Assembly (NCBI GenBank): GCA_007280205.1
Contig: QYPX01000197.1
Span: 1-32,898 of the forward strand
Direction: 5' to 3'
DNA from: Comamonadaceae bacterium
Lineage (GTDB): Bacteria; Pseudomonadota; Gammaproteobacteria; Burkholderiales; Burkholderiaceae_C
DNA length: 32,898 bases
Below the pieces are notes generated by a model. It did no database searches, was not told the DNA's origin, and saw only the letters and a program-made list of their open reading frames with translations. Positions 24,553 to 32,898 of the stretch are shown here, piece after piece. Position 1 is the first letter of the stretch. Each line of letters starts with the position of its first letter. Position numbers and translations under genes: made by a program.

Positions 24553-24638
24553 GGGTACTCCTAATATTGCGAGTCTATCGCCAACGGCGGGACGCTGCTT
24601 TGTGCGCCAAAATACGCCTGAACACTCACCTTGCAGCC

Positions 24639-26744
24639 ATGAATCCAACATCTACCGCAGTTCCCGACGTCAAGACCAGCCAGATCCTGGGCGCCTGCCC
24701 ACACGACTGCCCTGACACCTGTTCGCTGCTGACCACGGTAAAGGGCGGCGTCGCCATCAAGGTGGGTGGCAACCCGGAGCATCCACACACCGCTGGCGCG
24801 CTGTGCACCAAGGTGTCGCGCTACCCGGAGCGCACTTACCACCCGCAGCGCATCCTGCAGCCGCTCAAGCGCGTCGGCCCCAAGGGCTCAGGCCAGTTTG
24901 AGCCGGTCAGTTGGGGCGCGGCGCTCAGTGACATTGCAGCCCGCCTCCAAGCCATAGCTGCGGACGGACCCGACGCTGCGCAGGCCATCCTGCCCTACAG
25001 CTACGCCGGCACCATGGGACTGGTGCAGGGCGAGGGCATGGCCGCACGCTTCTTTCACCAACTGGGCGCCTCTTTGCTGGATCGCACGGTCTGCTCCTCA
25101 GCCGGCGCCGAGGCGCTGACGCAAACGCTCGGCGGCAAGCTCGGCATGCACCTGAAGTTTTTTGCCGAATCCAGACTGATCCTGATCTGGGGCAGCAACT
25201 CGATCACCAGCAACCTGCACTTCTGGCGCTATGCGCAGAAGGCGAAGAACCAGGGCGCCAAACTGATCTGCATCGACCCGCGCAAAAGCGAAACGGCAGA
25301 CAAGTGCGACGAACACATCGCGCTGTTACCCGGCACCGATGGGGCGCTGGCCTTGTCACTCATGCACGAACTGATTCAGCATGACTGGCTGGACCACGAC
25401 TACCTGGCTCGCTACACCCTGGGCTGGGACTTGCTGCGCAGCCGCGCCCTGCAGTGGCCACCCGAGCGTGCAGCGCGGGTCTGCGGCATTGGGCCCGAGC
25501 AGATTCGTGCGCTGGCCCGGGACTACGGCGCCTGTGCCGCCAGCGGTGAGCCGGCCGCCATCCGCATGAATTACGGCATGCAGCGCGTGCACGGCGGTGG
25601 CAACGCGGCGCGCCTGATCGCCTCGCTGCCAGCGCTGATCGGTGCCTGGCGCCATCGTGCGGGTGGTGTGCTGCTGTCAAGTTCCAGCAGCTTCCCGATC
25701 CAGCGCGCCGCATTGCAGCGGCCCGACCTGCTTGGTGGCCGAAAACCGCGCACGATCAACATGAGCACCATTGGCGACAACCTGCTGCGAGCGGCCAGCC
25801 AGGACTTTGGCCCGGCCGTCAAGGCGCTGATCGTCTACAACAGCAACCCCGTCGCGATTGCCCCGGACTCTGCCAGGGTGGTGCAGGGTTTTGAGCGCGA
25901 CGATCTGTTCACGGTGGTGCTGGAACACTTCCAGACCGACACCGCCGACTACGCCGATTACATCCTGCCCGCCACCACGCAACTGGAACACTGGGACGTG
26001 CACATGAGCTACGGCCACACCGATGTGCTGCTCAATCGGCCGGCGATTGCGCCACTGGGCCAGGCCAAGCCGAACGCGCAGATCTTTCGGGAACTGGCGC
26101 AGCACATGGGCTTTGATGACCCCTGCTTTGCCGACGACGACCTGACGCTGTGCCGCATGGCGTACGGCGCGGCGGTCGATTTTGATGAACTGCTGGAGAA
26201 GGGTTTCGTTACTCTGAAATTGCCCGATGCACCGTTTGCCCAGGGGGCTTATCCGACGCCCTCGGGAAAATGTGAGTTCTTCAGTGCCCGGCTCGCCGCA
26301 ATGGGTCTGGACGGACTGCCTGACCATGTGCCGAATCACGAGCCTTTCAACTCGTCGGTCGACTATCCGCTGGCCATGATCTCGCCACCGGCGCGCAACT
26401 TTTTGAACTCCAGCTTCGTCAACGTGGAGAGCCTGCGCGCGCTCGAAGGCGAGCCGCTGCTGGAGATGCACGCCGATGACGCTGCCGCGCGCGGCCTGCA
26501 AAACGGCGACACGGTGCGCGTCTTCAACCAGCGCGGCGTGTATCGCTGCAAGCTCAAGATCTCCAGGCGGGCGCGCGTTGGCGTGGTCAACGGCCTGGGT
26601 GTCTGGTGGCGCAAGCACGGACTCGCTGGCACCAATGTGAACGAGCTCACCAGCCAGGCCCTGACCGACATCGGTCGCGCGCCAACTTTTTACGATTGTC
26701 TGGTGCAGGTAGAAGCAGATTCCCGGATCGGTGGAACTCACTGA
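24639..26744 (+). CDS. Cytoplasmic formate-dehydrogenase-like molybdopterin oxidoreductase
   Basis: 701 residues from MNPTSTAVPDVKTSQILGAC. The N-terminal [4Fe-4S] site is CPHDCPDTC with a fourth cysteine in GALCTKVSRYPERTYHP. Bis-MGD-binding segments follow: LILIWGSNSITSNLHFW, CIDPRKSETADKCD, LLPGTDGALALSLMH and YIPATTQ-type YILPATTQLEHWD. RTVCSSAGAEAL suggests a cysteine Mo ligand, as in Nap-type and Cys-formate dehydrogenases. The C-terminal molydop_binding domain includes LLEMHADDAAARGLQNGDTVRVFN. No Tat signal, so cytoplasmic. No partner flavin or NuoEF-like subunit is adjacent. Substrate is unknown; formate or a small oxidised compound is possible. Confidence 0.88.
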   Translation: MNPTSTAVPDVKTSQILGACPHDCPDTCSLLTTVKGGVAIKVGGNPEHPHTAGALCTKVSRYPERTYHPQRILQPLKRVGPKGSGQFEPVSWGAALSDIAARLQAIAADGPDAAQAILPYSYAGTMGLVQGEGMAARFFHQLGASLLDRTVCSSAGAEALTQTLGGKLGMHLKFFAESRLILIWGSNSITSNLHFWRYAQKAKNQGAKLICIDPRKSETADKCDEHIALLPGTDGALALSLMHELIQHDWLDHDYLARYTLGWDLLRSRALQWPPERAARVCGIGPEQIRALARDYGACAASGEPAAIRMNYGMQRVHGGGNAARLIASLPALIGAWRHRAGGVLLSSSSSFPIQRAALQRPDLLGGRKPRTINMSTIGDNLLRAASQDFGPAVKALIVYNSNPVAIAPDSARVVQGFERDDLFTVVLEHFQTDTADYADYILPATTQLEHWDVHMSYGHTDVLLNRPAIAPLGQAKPNAQIFRELAQHMGFDDPCFADDDLTLCRMAYGAAVDFDELLEKGFVTLKLPDAPFAQGAYPTPSGKCEFFSARLAAMGLDGLPDHVPNHEPFNSSVDYPLAMISPPARNFLNSSFVNVESLRALEGEPLLEMHADDAAARGLQNGDTVRVFNQRGVYRCKLKISRRARVGVVNGLGVWWRKHGLAGTNVNELTSQALTDIGRAPTFYDCLVQVEADSRIGGTH

Positions 26745-27709: not shown

Positions 27710-28228
27710 TCAGCGCAGCACTGCGTGCGCCAGCACGAAGGCCGCGATGGCTGCGGTATCGGCCAGATCGAGTTGCGTCAGGCCGGGGGTCACGCTGTGC
27801 TGCACTTCGGACTTCGGCGGCGTGTCGCTGGCGATGGCCAGAATGCCCGGCCAGTCGGGCCACAGGGTCTTGGTGCCGACTTCAGCGCGCCAGACTTCAA
27901 TCTTGGGAAAGCTGCCGTGCTTGAAGCCTTCGATCAGCACCAGATCGCAGTCCATCATGCGGTCCAGCAGGTAGTCCAGCGAGGGCTCGCTGGCGCCGCG
28001 CAGCTCGTGCATCAGGGCCCAGCGATCGTTGCCCAGCAGCAGCACTTCCTTGCAGCCCGATTCGCGCAGACGGCAAGAGTCCTTGCCGGGGCGGTCGATA
28101 TCAATGTTCTTGTGGCTGTGCTTGATCAGGGAAACCCGCAGGCCGCGCTTGGTGAGCTCGGGCACCAAGCGCTCCAGCAAGGTCGTCTTGCCCATACCGG
28201 AATGTCCGGCGATACCGAAAATTTTCAT
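27710..28228 (-). CDS. mobB: Molybdopterin-guanine dinucleotide biosynthesis adaptor MobB
   Basis: 172 residues from MKIFGIAGHSGMGKTTLLER. The P-loop GHSGMGKTT, LIKHSHKNIDIDRPGKDS and DCDLVLIEGFKHGSFPKIEVWR are diagnostic of MobB, a GTP-binding protein that assists MobA in attaching GMP to molybdopterin to form the bis-MGD cofactor. It ends TAAIAAFVLAHAVLR. It is the last gene of a minus-strand operon with a molybdoenzyme, its Fe-S subunit and a TorD-like chaperone (gap to the chaperone gene 34 bp), which fits cofactor supply. The start at 28228 replaces a longer non-homologous extension. Its 3' end is duplicated at 27096. Confidence 0.93.
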   Translation of the reverse strand: MKIFGIAGHSGMGKTTLLERLVPELTKRGLRVSLIKHSHKNIDIDRPGKDSCRLRESGCKEVLLLGNDRWALMHELRGASEPSLDYLLDRMMDCDLVLIEGFKHGSFPKIEVWRAEVGTKTLWPDWPGILAIASDTPPKSEVQHSVTPGLTQLDLADTAAIAAFVLAHAVLR

Positions 28229-28262
28229 GCTTGCTTCTCCAACGCAGCTGACTGCTTGCCGC

Positions 28263-28898
28263 TCAGTGCAGCGCCAGCGTGTCCCCCTGGATGCGCACAA
28301 AGCGTTCGGTCAAAGCGCCGAGTTCGCGGTAGAACGCAGACTGAGCGCCGCTGGCCATCGCTGCGGCAAACGGGGCTATCCACGCGCCAAGGTGTTCGGC
28401 CAGAAAGCGCTGTTTCAACCATTGCAGGGCGACGGCCTCTTCGCTCTTCCCAGCAGTAGCAGCGTGGTTCTGGTTAAAGGTCAAAAGGTACAGAAATTCC
28501 AGTTCCACCGCCACATGGTCGGGCCGCTCCCTGAACTCTTCATCGATCTCGAAGCCGCCCTGGCTGTACAGCTCCAGCACCGCCAGCGGCGGCGTGTCTT
28601 GCGTCGGGGCAGATGAACTCAGCCAGGACTCACCATAGGGACTGGCCAGCGCCTGCACCGGCCCGAGAAAGAGCCGTGTGTAGTCCACCAGAAGGGTCTC
28701 GATGTCCTGCGCCGTGAAGGCGTCGCCCAAGCGGCGCGCGTGCTCTGCCAGATACGGATCAAGCCGCCTGGCCGCGATCAGCATGTTGTCAAACAATTTC
28801 TCCTCGACGAATTCCGCCGCCGGCTCGTAATAGCAGGCGGACAGAAAGCGGCACAGGTCCTCGCGCGCAACCGTCTCGTCGGGGTCATAGTCGGACAT
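28263..28898 (-). CDS. TorD/DmsD-family molybdoenzyme chaperone
   Basis: 211 residues from MSDYDPDETVAREDLCRFLS. The all-helical TorD fold is indicated by LLVDYTRLFLGPVQALASPYGESWL (the Y-x-R-LF-GP..PYES-like signature) and by RPDHVAVELEFLYLLTFNQ (the conserved E-L-E-F motif). Such proteins bind the Tat signal of a partner molybdoenzyme and hold the apoenzyme until cofactor is inserted. The partner here is almost certainly the enzyme at 29795-32353. Two ATGs are adjacent (28901, 28898); the second has better spacing from AGGAGAG. A terminator lies in its leader, 16-42 bp upstream. Confidence 0.9.
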   Translation of the reverse strand: MSDYDPDETVAREDLCRFLSACYYEPAAEFVEEKLFDNMLIAARRLDPYLAEHARRLGDAFTAQDIETLLVDYTRLFLGPVQALASPYGESWLSSSAPTQDTPPLAVLELYSQGGFEIDEEFRERPDHVAVELEFLYLLTFNQNHAATAGKSEEAVALQWLKQRFLAEHLGAWIAPFAAAMASGAQSAFYRELGALTERFVRIQGDTLALH

Positions 28899-28913
28899 CA
28901 TCTCTCCTGGAAC

Positions 28914-28940
28914 AAAAAAGGGGCCGGTCATCCCGGCCCC
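28914..28940 (-). terminator. Intrinsic terminator between the Fe-S subunit gene and torD-like gene
   Basis: On the minus strand GGGGCCGG-GATGA-CCGGCCCC forms a perfect 8-bp GC stem with a 5-nt loop, followed by six T residues (A-run 28914-28919 on plus). It lies 25 bp after the Fe-S gene stop and just ahead of the chaperone ribosome-binding site, so it should reduce read-through into the chaperone and mobB. Confidence 0.85.
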
Positions 28941-28964
28941 CAAAGACACTTGGCGCCGGGCCGC

Positions 28965-29762
28965 TCAGGCACGGGGGCTGTACTTGCCAATGTAATGCAC
29001 ATTGGGCTTCGTGCCTTTTTCTTCCAGCAAACGGAAAGATTTCTCATTCTTGAGGATCTGCGAAATCTGGCTGGCCGGATCTTCCTGGTCGCCAAAGATG
29101 CGCGCCTTGGACGCGCAGACCTCTACGCAAGCCGGTTGCAGACCGTTAAGCACGCGGTGATAGCAGAAAGTGCATTTCTCCACCACGTCGTCGCTGCGCA
29201 CCGGCTGCAGGTCGCCACCCTTCCACGCATTGAGCATCGGTGGCACCGCGCCTGCCAAGGCTGCCACTTCGGCACCGGACGAAGTGCAACCAGGAATGGC
29301 CGAGCTCTTGTCGGCCCAGCGCGGCTGCGTGCTTTCGTCCATGGCGTTAAAGCTGATCACACTGTAGCTGCCGCCGTCCAGGCTCGTCGCATCGAGCTTC
29401 TCACGGCTGTACGGGCAATTGGTCTGGCATTCCCGGCAGCCGACGCACAGCGCCGGGTCGTGCAGGGTAATGCCTTCGGGCGTCTTGAACAGCGCCTTGT
29501 AGGGGTTGCCCGGGCCGGCTTTCTTCGGGTTGCCAGGGCATTTGGTGACGCAAGGCGCGTCGCTGCAGTGGTTACACAGGACCGGCAATACCATCTGCGT
29601 CACGTTCGGGAACGTGCCCTCGGTGCGCATGATGAAGTCGGCCCAGTTGTAGCTCTGCTCATTGCCGCGGTCGCGGGTGTTGTTTTCGGCTTTGCAGGCA
29701 AAGGCGCAAGCGCCGCAACCGTTGCATTTTGCGAGGTCGATGACCATTCCAAGTCTAGACAT
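28965..29762 (-). CDS. Four-cluster ferredoxin subunit of a respiratory molybdoenzyme
   Basis: 265 residues in the DmsB/PsrB/TtrB/ArrB group. Four [4Fe-4S] sites are visible: CNGCGACAFAC, CNHCSDAPCVTKC, CVGCRECQTNC, and CTFC..(11)..CVEVC, with the usual cross-pairing to C-terminal cysteines. No signal of its own; such subunits are exported by piggy-backing on the Tat signal of the catalytic subunit. The insertion between clusters (about residues 130-185, with SLDGGSYSVISFNAMDES and a lone Cys in SAIPGCTSSG) is longer than in DmsB. AGGAG sits 9 bases before the ATG. It lies 32 bp after the catalytic gene and transfers electrons between it and the quinone or cytochrome partner. Confidence 0.92.
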   Translation of the reverse strand: MSRLGMVIDLAKCNGCGACAFACKAENNTRDRGNEQSYNWADFIMRTEGTFPNVTQMVLPVLCNHCSDAPCVTKCPGNPKKAGPGNPYKALFKTPEGITLHDPALCVGCRECQTNCPYSREKLDATSLDGGSYSVISFNAMDESTQPRWADKSSAIPGCTSSGAEVAALAGAVPPMLNAWKGGDLQPVRSDDVVEKCTFCYHRVLNGLQPACVEVCASKARIFGDQEDPASQISQILKNEKSFRLLEEKGTKPNVHYIGKYSPRA

Positions 29763-29794: not shown

Positions 29795-32353
29795 TCAGGC
29801 CTTCTGGATCCGGACACCGGTGAAGCCGCCGTTGCGGGCGGTCGAACCACTCAGCCGGTCGTAGTCATCGACCAGGATTTCGTTGTTGTTGCCGCCAAGG
29901 GGAATGGCTTTGGCATAGTCTTTGGCCGCCACACGTCCGTAAGCCCAGTGACCCTGGCCGTAGCATTTGGCCACCGTACCCGGGCGTACACCCTCCCACA
30001 GTTTGAGCTGACAACTGATCGTTCCGATGGTTGAAGTGATCTTCACGCTGTCACCGCTCTTGAGGCCCAGCCTGGCGCCATCGACCGGATTCATCTTGAC
30101 CACGTCGCTCCAGGACACATCGCCCGAATCGACCTTCTTGAACTCCTGGTACCAGGGCAGATTGGCAGAGCGGCCCTCGCGGTTCAGCCGCGACTTGTAG
30201 TCAATGAAGGTCAATGGGTAATCGGCCAGGCTGCCGTGGCGCTTGACGGTCTCATAGTGCGGCACAAAGGCCTGCTCGCCGCGCGCCATGTAACCACTGA
30301 CCGTCATGATGTCGTCCACTGTGGTTTGGTACTTCTTGGCGTGTTCGAGCAGTCCCTTCTTCAGGGTCTCGCTGTAGAACTCGAACTTCTTGGTCTCGGT
30401 GGCAAACTTGCCGCCCCAGCCCTTTTTGAGCGTGTATTTGGCGCCGCTGAACATGCCTTTTTTCTTGTAGTCGGCCCAGCCATTGATCGGTGTATCGCCC
30501 TTCAATGGCTCTTTTGCCATCCAGATCGGAGCACTCTTCATCTTCGTAGCTATCTCGGAGAATTCCATTGCGGTGGTGGGCGCCTTGCCGGTCTCGGGGT
30601 CCTTGAACTCTTTTGAGTAGTAATCAAACAGGTTGGCAAAACCCTTGGCCTTGAGCTTTTCAGCCAGCAGCCACATGACCTCGGTTTCTTCCTGCTTGAC
30701 GTCCCACAGGCGCTTGACCGCGCCTTGCTGGATCGATGCGTAGGCAAAGCCATTGGCCATGTTGGTGACAATCGACCAGCCTTCAGCGGAATTGAAGGTG
30801 GACGGGAGCACAATGTCGGCGAACTGCGTCATCTCCGAGGCGTTGGGCACCATGTGCACAAAGAACGGCACCTTGGCCATCACCTTGTCCCAGCGGTCTG
30901 CGCCAGTGCAGGAGAAGTTGAAGTTCGCCCATGAGGCAATCAATACCTTCACGGCATTCGGGTCCTTGAGCATGCCGTTGGCCACGTTGTTGGTGACCAC
31001 GCCGCTGCCCGGCTTGGCATTCATCATCGCGGGCATGTCCTTCGCACCACGGCCATCGAGCTTCTTGCCGGTGCTGCCTTTCTTGGCGATGTCATCGACG
31101 TAGGCGTCGGATTTGGGGAATGCAGCCAGCGGTGGGCCACTGGGGCTTTGCCAGACCCCGCCTTCCACATCGACCGAGCCCAGCAAGCCATTGAGCGCAT
31201 AGACCGCCATGGAGGCGTAGGTGCCGCGCGGCGTCATGGCCACGCCAGGGCCCATGTAGACCACGGTCTTGGGAGCGGCTTTGCCCATGGCGCGGGCCAC
31301 GCGCACGATTTGTGCGGCTGGAATCAGCGACTCTTTTTCACCCCAGGCGGGTGTCTGGTTTTTGAGTTCCAGGTTCCACCACTTGACCAGACCGTAAGTC
31401 TCTTTCTCTGCAAAAGCGGCTTCGTCCACCGTCCTGCCAGCGACAAAAAGATTCTTGCCATCCTTGAAATCACCGACAAACTCGCGGTTCCACAGACCTT
31501 CTGTCAACAACACATGGGCAATGGAGCCTGCCAGCGCACCATCGGTGCCAGGGCTGATCGGCAACCACTCGTGTGCCTTGGCTGCGACCGTGGACAAGCG
31601 CGGGTCGATGGCGATCACGGTGCCGCGCTTGACGATTCCCGCGAACTGGCTTTGCATATTGGGCACCATGCGGTTCGACGCCAGCGGGTCGCAACCCCAA
31701 GCCACCAGGCAATTCGTGTTGGCCAGATCGTAGTCACGATAGCCAAAGAAGCCCTGCGTCAGGCCCGGACCCATTTTTTCGGCTTCGGCGCAAATCGCAC
31801 TGTGTGAAAAATAGTTGGGAGTGCCAAAGACTTTGGGCAGCGTGCCGTACAGCAGATCGGTGGACGTGGGTGAATAACGACCCCGAATGTAGGTCAATTT
31901 TTCCGGCTCGCCGGCCTTGCGCAGCGCAATCATCTTGTCAGCCACTGTATTCATCGCTTCGTCCCAGCTGATGGGGACAAATTTTGGATCGATACCACGG
32001 CCCTTCTGCGGATTGGTCCGCTTCATCGGTACCTTGATGCGGTCCGGGTCGTACATCTGCTGCGGAATCATGTGGCCCCGCGGGCAGACATAGCCATGGT
32101 TTGATTTGGAAAGCGGATTGCCGCGCACGCGCGTGGCGCGACCACCCTGTACATAAATTTGAATCGCGCACCACTGCGTGCAACCCTGGCAGGTGCTGGC
32201 CACCCAGTCGCCAGCGGCCGGGCTGGAAGCTTTGGCATTGCGCGGCAGCAGCGCGCTGTGCACCGGTCCGGCGGGCAAACCGGCGCAACCGGTGACCAGC
32301 GACCCGGCAGAAATGCCCGATGCCATGATGAAAATTCGTCTTGTTAGCCTCAT
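29795..32353 (-). CDS. Tat-exported respiratory molybdoenzyme, ArrA/TtrA-like clade
   Basis: 852 residues. The N-terminus MRLTRRIFIMASGISAGS carries a Tat RR motif and then LVTGC (Cys23), a lipobox-like sequence. The Fe-S motif CQGCTQWC..C has spacing C-x2-C-x3-C-x27-C, as I recall for arsenate reductases. The Mo ligand region is FSHSAICAEAEKMGPGLTQG with Cys as ligand; His (-4), Lys (+5) and Tyr (+17) sit where I recall ArrA active-site residues. GRYSPTSTDLLYG precedes it. Length is close to ArrA (~850) and shorter than TtrA (~1,020). Role: terminal reduction (or oxidation) of an inorganic oxyanion such as arsenate, tetrathionate or a selenium/sulfur compound. Substrate is inferred only. Starts the operon to mobB. 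Confidence 0.85.
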   Translation of the reverse strand: MRLTRRIFIMASGISAGSLVTGCAGLPAGPVHSALLPRNAKASSPAAGDWVASTCQGCTQWCAIQIYVQGGRATRVRGNPLSKSNHGYVCPRGHMIPQQMYDPDRIKVPMKRTNPQKGRGIDPKFVPISWDEAMNTVADKMIALRKAGEPEKLTYIRGRYSPTSTDLLYGTLPKVFGTPNYFSHSAICAEAEKMGPGLTQGFFGYRDYDLANTNCLVAWGCDPLASNRMVPNMQSQFAGIVKRGTVIAIDPRLSTVAAKAHEWLPISPGTDGALAGSIAHVLLTEGLWNREFVGDFKDGKNLFVAGRTVDEAAFAEKETYGLVKWWNLELKNQTPAWGEKESLIPAAQIVRVARAMGKAAPKTVVYMGPGVAMTPRGTYASMAVYALNGLLGSVDVEGGVWQSPSGPPLAAFPKSDAYVDDIAKKGSTGKKLDGRGAKDMPAMMNAKPGSGVVTNNVANGMLKDPNAVKVLIASWANFNFSCTGADRWDKVMAKVPFFVHMVPNASEMTQFADIVLPSTFNSAEGWSIVTNMANGFAYASIQQGAVKRLWDVKQEETEVMWLLAEKLKAKGFANLFDYYSKEFKDPETGKAPTTAMEFSEIATKMKSAPIWMAKEPLKGDTPINGWADYKKKGMFSGAKYTLKKGWGGKFATETKKFEFYSETLKKGLLEHAKKYQTTVDDIMTVSGYMARGEQAFVPHYETVKRHGSLADYPLTFIDYKSRLNREGRSANLPWYQEFKKVDSGDVSWSDVVKMNPVDGARLGLKSGDSVKITSTIGTISCQLKLWEGVRPGTVAKCYGQGHWAYGRVAAKDYAKAIPLGGNNNEILVDDYDRLSGSTARNGGFTGVRIQKA

Positions 32354-32509
32354 AAGAAACTCCTGATTTGATGTTCAATCACTGCACCGCCGAACCCAGG
32401 CTGACGCGCCTTGACCACGGTCTGATCAAGTTTGGTGCTGCAACTTTCGCGCCAGCGCCGGGTTTTCGCCGAGGCACAGCGACAGCGTCCGAACCGCCGC
32501 AACCAGTCG

Positions 32510-32525
32510 GTTACCTCAAGGTAAC
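32510..32525. promoter_or_regulatory. Operator-like palindrome 1
   Basis: GTTACC-TCAA-GGTAAC, perfect 6-bp arms with a 4-bp spacer. It lies 157 bp upstream of the molybdoenzyme start on the minus strand, in an activator-like position for that operon. Confidence 0.7.
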
Positions 32526-32605
32526 GCCGGGCCGGTAAAATTCATAGCGTTTTCAACAAGGTGGCACGTTTCATGTGGGCCTTGCTCTAACCGGCCTGAA
32601 CCGAC

Positions 32606-32621
32606 GTTACCGATGGGTAAC
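32606..32621. promoter_or_regulatory. Operator-like palindrome 2
   Basis: GTTACC-GATG-GGTAAC, the same arms and spacer length as palindrome 1, with one extra C/G pair outside. Its centre is 96 bp from palindrome 1 and 40 bp from palindrome 3, about nine and four helical turns. Confidence 0.7.
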
Positions 32622-32645
32622 GCAAATCAGCCGAAACGGCCCGAT

Positions 32646-32661
32646 GTCACCGTTTGGTAAC
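32646..32661. promoter_or_regulatory. Operator-like palindrome 3
   Basis: GTCACC-GTTT-GGTAAC, one mismatch in the left arm, plus an outer T/A pair. It ends 11 bp before the PhnD-like gene start and touches its ribosome-binding site, suggesting repression or autoregulation of that gene. Confidence 0.65.
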
Positions 32662-32672
32662 AAGGAAGCACG

Positions 32673-32898
32673 ATGTACCGATTTCTGGGGAAACTGCTTG
32701 TCGCAGCCTGGCTGGGCGCGTTTTGTCTGGCGGCGCTCGGTGCCCCCGACACGCGGATCATCCGCTTCGGCATGACGCCAGCCTTTTTGCACGATCAGCA
32801 TGCCTTGCTGGCCGAGTGGCGCGTCTATCTGGAAAAGCGCATACAGCGCCCAGTGGAGTTTGTGCAACGCGACCGTTATCGCGAGACCATGGACTTGC
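32673..32898 (+). CDS. Exported PhnD-like oxyanion-binding protein or sensor, N-terminal part (runs off the window)
   Basis: The open frame starts MYRFLGKLLVAAWLGAFCLA and continues without a stop to the last base (75 codons). Residues 1-~24 form a signal peptide or signal anchor (LAALGAPD cleavage region). Then TRIIRFGMTPAFLHDQHALL and EWRVYLEKRIQRPVEFVQRD match the first lobe of phosphonate-type periplasmic binding domains (PhnD/PF12974). Such domains occur as free binding proteins (ArxX, AioX) or as the sensing half of histidine kinases such as TtrS, next to arsenic or tetrathionate enzymes. Position, divergent from the molybdoenzyme operon, fits a ligand sensor for it. Which of the two forms it is cannot be told from this fragment. 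Confidence 0.75.
   Translation, partial: MYRFLGKLLVAAWLGAFCLAALGAPDTRIIRFGMTPAFLHDQHALLAEWRVYLEKRIQRPVEFVQRDRYRETMDL

Follow-up and report, generated by a model that had tools for sequence, protein, structure and literature searches.

The question raised by this locus is which regulator acts on three palindromes that lie between a molybdoenzyme operon, arrAB, and a divergent gene, X, which encodes an AioX/PhnD-type periplasmic binding protein. The window (the whole stretch of DNA analysed, which is one whole contig of 32,898 nt) comes from an organism whose genus, and that of its close relatives, we have taken as Rhodoferax. We consider the dyads to be the predicted operators of the NtrC-type regulator (R) of an arrXSR three-component system made up of X, a sensor kinase (S) and R, and from sequence comparisons we give this reading a probability of about 0.86. 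On this reading there is a concrete circuit, open to experiment, by which arsenate respiration would be controlled in Rhodoferax, which was enriched as an arsenate respirer in 2021 and was termed not reported to date as one in the account given by PMC8290898.

The dyads and their gene neighbourhood

The features on which the argument depends are listed here in the order in which they occur in the window.

27710..28300, minus strand: MobB, molybdenum cofactor protein (profile match)
28263..28949, minus strand: TorD-type chaperone gene (profile match)
28965..29762, minus strand: arrB, iron-sulfur subunit (NF041715 213.5 bits, below the cut-off of 450)
29795..32353, minus strand: arrA, predicted respiratory arsenate reductase catalytic subunit, 852 aa, with an RGRY motif
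32439..32454, minus strand: putative sigma54 -24/-12 element TGGCGCGAAAGTTGCA, reading towards arrA (pattern match)
32510..32525, no strand: dyad 1, GTTACC-TCAA-GGTAAC, exact; putative upstream activating site for the arrA sigma54 promoter, with counterparts in orthologues
32536..32541, plus strand: putative -10 element of X, TAAAAT (by pattern only)
32606..32621, no strand: dyad 2, GTTACC-GATG-GGTAAC, exact; inside the putative leader of the X gene
32646..32661, no strand: dyad 3, GTCACC-GTTT-GGTAAC, one left-arm mismatch; abuts the X ribosome-binding site
32662..32668, plus strand: X ribosome-binding site AAGGAAG (read directly)
32673..32898, plus strand: X gene, AioX/PhnD family periplasmic binding protein, cut by the contig end after 75 codons

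The coordinates of the dyads in the initial annotation and their centre-to-centre distances, 96 bp between dyads 1 and 2 and 40 bp between dyads 2 and 3, proved to be right, as did the remark that one dyad touches the ribosome-binding site of the PhnD-like gene, which dyad 3 abuts. The annotation had also given all three dyads the same arms and the same 4-bp spacer; this holds for the arms of dyads 1 and 2 and for the length of the spacers, but not for the left arm of dyad 3 (GTCACC), nor for the spacer sequences, which all differ. The T-to-C change in this half-site of dyad 3 also recurs in orthologues.

Nothing like the dyads had been seen elsewhere in the window, and we agree that it holds no further GTTACC-N4-GGTAAC site with up to one mismatch. 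Windows simulated with a first-order Markov model (n = 2400) contained a mean of 0.013 such sites, and a pair or triple within the observed span was found in none of the 2400. When three mismatches were allowed the window contained 8 sites compared with a shuffle mean of 5.0, and 10 of 100 shuffles reached 8, so this total is not raised. The whole 4.19-Mb assembly has five sites with up to one mismatch (the three dyads plus two elsewhere) against nine for the reversed control, and the other two near-matches (L174 and L175), which have no XSR or reference-enzyme match, were taken as background. It is the clustering of the dyads that is special and not their genome-wide total. Occurrence at background frequency across the genome had been named as grounds for discarding the motif; single sites genome-wide are indeed at background, whereas clusters are above it.

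The enzyme beside the dyads had been described as a respiratory oxyanion enzyme, and it can be placed as ArrA by motif. It contains KLTYIRGRYSP, which has the (R/K)GRY motif and not GRGWG; the RGRY-type motif marks ArrA and GRGWG marks ArxA according to PMC6549141. The match to NCBIfam NF041714 was nearly full length and the best among the models shown, at 1023.5 bits, but missed the cut-off of 1600, and we therefore call the enzyme ArrA-type by its motif and nearest relatives and not by this model, with arsenate reduction as its predicted activity. Its nearest solved structure is ArrA (E = 1.5e-273), and its identity is 69–77% with the ArrA-type proteins from L094, L110 and L130, compared with 32–33% with three ArxA-type proteins; on these values and the RGRY motif an ArxA identity was rejected. 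The N-terminus looks twin-arginine-like by eye. A tetrathionate (TtrSR) reading was also rejected, as the relatives have an X that is not part of the kinase and an R of the NtrC type, and the enzyme scored 1023.5 bits for ArrA compared with 74.5 bits for TtrA.

We also note a second molybdopterin oxidoreductase of 725 aa at positions 24567–26744 of the window, for which the best models were DmsA/YnfE and formate dehydrogenase, all far under their cut-offs. In the relative L036 a multihaem cytochrome c joined to a b561-type membrane domain is encoded beside the arr operon (L036:4082–6085), and is a possible quinol link.

The window contains only a fragment of X, which shares 89% identity with the G034 X across 76 aa and gave no match in a Pfam search. 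In L036 the gene after X (PF12974) encodes a HAMP-HisKA-HATPase kinase, S, and the next one encodes R, a regulator with receiver, sigma54 activation and Fis-type HTH domains (all by Pfam), and X, S and R were matched by BLAST in other relatives. A response regulator had been expected downstream of the PhnD-like gene, and this is borne out in the relatives, where both a sensor kinase and a DNA-binding regulator follow. Among solved structures the X of L036 is nearest to AioX (E = 3.8e-55) and then to ArrX (E = 8.5e-36), and the R of L036 is 43% identical to NT-26 AioR. The source organism's own assembly contains no second good X (the sole match has 28% identity) and no close S or R (the first five R matches are 39–44% identical and resemble other regulators), which is expected with a contig break inside X in an 84%-complete genome, and S and R presumably come after X here as they do in the relatives. 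Several relatives also have a dyad-like site some 100 bp ahead of R, within the coding sequence of the kinase (L036:13310, L094:4500, L077, L078 and L104), where it may reflect a coding constraint or an internal control site.

Conservation of the dyads and co-occurrence with X

An orthologue search of 148 genomes, with the window's own included, gave 18 same-genus relatives with 82–92% identity, of which 17 were informative upstream (L023 is the 3' end of the gene only). Three dyads with up to one mismatch were found in 15 of these 17 orthologues; L048 has two dyads and lies at a contig end, and L043 has no dyads and no X, so that sites and regulator are absent together. Absence of the dyads from orthologous promoters had been put forward as a reason to abandon the annotation's reading, and the conservation seen here clearly removes it. 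The arms are conserved more than the spacers, which differ between loci with some common to close relatives.

A wider comparison used what we refer to as the named loci, which are the best 80 of 516 relatives from a scan of the genome collection. In these 80 loci there are 85 dyads with up to one mismatch in the 68,075 bp upstream of the enzyme (up to 900 bp before it) compared with 11 in 918,016 bp elsewhere, and some of these 11 outlying dyads adjoin X or fall inside the kinase gene. X was counted as present at an identity of at least 45%, and 18 of the 80 loci were dropped for short flanks. Dyads occur in 29 of the 30 remaining loci with X and in 2 of the 32 without, which supports the suggested tie to the divergent PhnD-like sensor gene, with the qualification that the loci are related and not independent, so that the Fisher value of 6e-14 overstates the association. 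In the only X-bearing exception, L122, the dyads are beside X and 3 kb from the enzyme, and in L101 and L130 a dyad is present without an X of at least 45% identity.

Palindromes of this kind may also be mRNA hairpins, here with 6-bp stems and 4-nt loops, which would govern translation or termination of the X transcript: the dyads could form such stem-loops, and one of them lies against the ribosome-binding site. Against this, positions 1, 3, 4, 5, 12, 13 and 16 are invariant in 88 dyads from the window and named loci (a set picked at up to one mismatch, which favours invariant positions), the mispair of dyad 3 is kept across loci, and dyad 1 lies upstream of both the putative X start and the arrA sigma54 element. 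As it is the arms and not the pairings that are conserved, we regard hairpins as extremely improbable and have set them aside.

Scans for the exact site gave a similar picture at larger scale. In the genus it was found in 27 of 89 genomes, with 44 sites compared with 37 for the reversed control (both summed), and by our own sorting 42 of the 44 are upstream of a molybdoenzyme: 31 of arrA, 9 of enz2 (a family described below), 1 of a TtrA/PhsA-like enzyme and 1 of aioBA. These sites adjoin X wherever the contig reaches X. The remaining two are in G008, in an arx neighbourhood about 4 kb beyond the enzyme genes, and in G001 (L173), where there is no XSR or reference enzyme nearby and the site was taken as background. 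A dyad pair 32 bp apart, one member with two mismatches, was also seen about 4 kb beyond the arx enzyme cluster of L049 (positions 2325 and 2357), with none listed near the X start of this locus.

In the order scan the exact site was found in 31 of 300 genomes (39 sites compared with approximately 58 for the reversed control, summed), and 29 loci were examined with the source genome and G123 left out. Where there were at least two dyads in 3 kb, X was present in 11 of 12 loci, compared with 1 of 17 loci with a single dyad; it should be noted that L248 and L257 are from genomes seen before and that L251 shows a 100% match to the Sulfuricella reference, which leaves 8 of 9 when only new multi-dyad loci are counted. 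As the exact-site totals are not raised compared with the reversed control, single sites mean little, and it is the placing of the sites and not their total that stands out. At least two dyads per 3-kb locus is nonetheless a simple DNA signature for finding oxyanion molybdoenzymes.

The only multi-dyad locus in the order scan without X is L236, in which an exact pair 34 bp apart lies between MFS and TetR genes with no X match in the 3-kb locus, and it brings up the alternative that a repressor, of the TetR type or otherwise unlinked, uses TTACC-N4-GGTAA-like dyads and acts at these sites. We think this very unlikely for the arr locus, given that profiling of genes next to the arr dyads, which covered the window and L036, gave no TetR match, that the dyads go with X in the proportions reported above, and that the half-site type tracks the recognition helix of R. 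This reading was set aside for the arr locus, and the look-alike pair in L236 stays as a caveat to the assignment of the dyads to R.

Promoter elements and the predicted circuit

The upstream end of the putative -24/-12 element is 63 bp from the centre of dyad 1, and counterparts of this element are found in dyad-bearing named loci such as L051–L053, L056 and L062. Across 79 named-locus rows, dyads and sigma54 elements occur together in 24, dyads only in 13, sigma54 elements only in 6, and neither in 36. On the X side, a 9-mer with TA[AG]AAT lies 71–75 nt before dyad 2 in 15 of 17 same-genus dyad loci, the exceptions being L041 (544) and L024 (41). In 14 loci selected for having three dyads and a good sigma54 element, the distance between dyads 2 and 3 is 40–42 bp in every case, compared with 96 to 600 bp between dyads 1 and 2.

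Because the spacing of the 9-mer, dyad 2 and dyad 3 is fixed and that of dyads 1 and 2 is variable, we read the region as two modules, with dyad 1 belonging to the putative arrA sigma54 promoter, and dyads 2 and 3 in the leader of a putative xsr promoter. The fixed place of the latter two past the putative xsr promoter suggests feedback. The geometry had also been thought to indicate cooperative binding, and this claim does not stand as made, since the spacings are no more than suggestive of helical phasing; the phase test is weak (p ~0.05 to 0.11, with ~0.05 for dyads 1 and 2 and their 11 distinct spacings), and we did not accept it as proof that binding is cooperative.

What can be read from the sequences compared is that the sites exist and are conserved, that promoter-like elements accompany them, which domains X, S and R have in relatives, and that dyads co-occur with X. 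From this we infer R binding, the ligand, looping and feedback in the following circuit. Periplasmic X would bind an arsenic oxyanion and signal through the kinase S, and phosphorylated R dimers would bind GTTAC(C)-N4-(G)GTAAC. At dyad 1, with help from dyads 2 and 3 farther upstream, R would oligomerise and contact the sigma54 polymerase at 32439–32454, thereby turning on arrAB-torD-mobB. From their place some 60–110 nt past the putative xsr start and next to the ribosome-binding site, dyads 2 and 3 would allow R to limit its own operon, and dyad 3 with its degenerate half-site would be filled last.

An alternative to the feedback is that the three dyads enhance arrA only, in which case dyads 2 and 3 would have no autoregulatory part and their place in the X leader would be incidental. 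In its favour, NtrC-type sites act at a distance, and the dyad pair of Sulfuritalea-type loci is upstream of a sigma54-like element. According to PMC6011840, arsenite leaves aioXSR unchanged in NT-26. This is a serious alternative, but we find it doubtful given the near-constant distance from the putative X -10 element to dyad 2 in the same-genus dyad loci, and the fixed distance between dyads 2 and 3 compared with the variable distance between dyads 1 and 2 in the selected set. We therefore retain the two-module reading with putative feedback on xsr.

The layout is mirrored in the Sulfuritalea-type arr loci, in which the sigma54-like element has the dyad pair on one side and, on the other, a third dyad close to arrA (L074, L105–L108, L111, L114, L116, L117 and L119).

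Related systems, recognition helices and other enzymes

The predicted circuit can be compared with several known systems. NtrC enhancer pairs are palindromic sites upstream of sigma54 -24/-12 promoters, with autoregulation; the locus has the same arrangement of palindromes upstream of a -24/-12 element and the same, here putative, autoregulation, and differs in motif, signal and target.

The initial annotation did not recognise the motif as that of a described regulator, and in this it was mistaken, as the core is the AioR consensus GTT-N10-AAC, for which in vitro binding is reported in PMC5335332, and twin palindromes are known at aioBA (PMC5335332, PMC3834237). PMC3834237 gives twin palindromes and -24/-12 boxes for all 12 aioBA operons with aioXSR, and for none without. 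As the consensus and the aioBA palindromes are already published the regulatory logic is known, and the AioR-type switch that appears to have been placed here on a betaproteobacterial arsenate reductase would be a variant of a known system. The likeness to AioXSR/aioBA as described in these two papers includes the X-S-R genes and an NtrC-type R (as read in the relatives), the GTT-N10-AAC palindromes, the -24/-12 element and sites found only with XSR. The differences are that the enzyme here is ArrAB, that the half-site is GTTAC(C) compared with GTTCG at NT-26 and Agrobacterium aioBA, and that the sites number three, of which two fall within the putative leader of the divergent xsr operon.

Dyads 1 and 2 contain the complete GTT-N10-AAC core and dyad 3 has it on one half only. 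On inspection, no dyad here fits the full 16-position AioR motif in the form given by PMC5335332, as dyads 1 and 2 depart from it at positions 7–10 on both strands, and dyad 3 at position 8 on the plus strand and position 14 on the minus strand. As is the case for AioR-type boxes, a sigma54 -24/-12 element is found downstream of the site (TGGCGCGAAAGTTGCA), and the sites occur with XSR and not without when X is used as the marker.

ArxXSR/arxB2ABCD shares the divergent layout and XSR homologues with our locus (PMC6683785, PMC6549141), and dyads are present at several arx-type loci (L050, L210, L225 and L227), the difference being the GRGWG motif of ArxA compared with RGRY in the window enzyme; a predicted ArxR site is given in PMC5908839. 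The same paper describes arrXSR systems in which ArrR is CitB-like with a FixJ-like site in Chrysiogenes/Firmicutes, and AtoC-like in Epsilonproteobacteria. These resemble our locus in having an arsenic-oxyanion sensor beside arrA (PMC5908839), the AtoC-like ArrR of Epsilonproteobacteria being a further likeness to the R predicted here, and the Chrysiogenes/Firmicutes system differs from it in that R here is predicted to be NtrC-type and the X of L036 is closer to AioX than to ArrX. In a literature search with most subscription papers outside its scope, we found no use of this regulatory logic on a betaproteobacterial arr operon, and within the same scope no GTTAC(C) half-site set there, divergent three-site layout or link to enz2; no title listed for ArrR or arrXSR beyond PMC5908839 was recognised as describing these dyads on arr, and searching with the hexamers gave unrelated titles among the matches listed.

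The half-site difference from aioBA can be compared with the recognition helix of R. When genomes were scanned for X it was found in 12 of 369 at the level of the class and in 10 of 398 at that of the phylum, giving 25 loci, and with 8 plasmid loci this made a set of 33 in which the helix could be read in 26. Sites were accepted within 700 bp of the reference gene start and with up to one mismatch in the 10 arm bases. Loci with a K-type helix (mostly SRKNLW) had GTTAC-type sites in 15 of 17 cases, with a GTTCG-type site in addition in L217, and loci with a T-type helix (RTTLW) had GTTCG-type sites in 7 of 9 cases and GTTAC-type sites in none. No site was found within 700 bp for the K-types L205 and L206 (the R of L206 was read 6 kb from X and may be no partner), or for the T-types L222 and L137, the last of which has a GTTCG-type site farther out. 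The recognition helix of R thus appears to go with the half-site (K with GTTAC and T with GTTCG), a correspondence which is new here and provides indirect support for the predicted binding of R. It should be noted that the four named T-type loci are all from alphaproteobacteria and the four named K-type loci from betaproteobacteria, so the split follows taxonomy, and it agrees with a recognition code but does not prove one.

The same box and XSR are found at Arx, Aio, enz2 and other loci besides ArrA. The enz2 proteins are a molybdoenzyme family of approximately 866 aa, whose genes face X-S-R with the same dyads in L165–L170, L214 and L254 (which includes part of enz2 only). In five of the six loci L165–L170 R is 73–81% identical to the R of L036, and L169 ends before R. 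The enz2 proteins of these six loci share 24–28% identity with the aligned ArrA and ArxA proteins and lack both GRY and GRGWG at the corresponding position, and the best models for enz2 were PhsA and then ArrA or DmsA, all far under cut-off. In L168 enz2 is accompanied by a 4Fe-4S subunit of its own, a TorD-type gene and another 4Fe-4S protein, in L170 arsA- and acr3-like genes are found nearby, and the L214 enz2 (54–56% identical) is about 17 kb from the aio locus of the same genome. The dyad signature therefore points to an unnamed enzyme family that is predicted to be under the control of the same switch.

A broader reading, to which we would give slightly less than even odds, is that GTTAC(C)-N4-(G)GTAAC and XSR may form an exchangeable oxyanion-sensing cassette, with the half-site read by one position of the R helix (K/T), which has come to lie upstream of at least five molybdoenzymes (ArrA, ArxA, AioBA, the TtrA/PhsA-like enzyme and enz2). 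This tentative reading would make enz2 an unrecognised arsenic- or antimony-oxyanion respiratory enzyme, and would allow that arsenite may even be the signal for the Rhodoferax arr sensor, since the binding loop of X is of the AioX type and ungapped (the binding-loop rule is from PMC5908839).

The TtrA/PhsA-like molybdoenzyme, a protein of 974 aa, was seen with X and dyads in L171, as was a close relative of it in L253.
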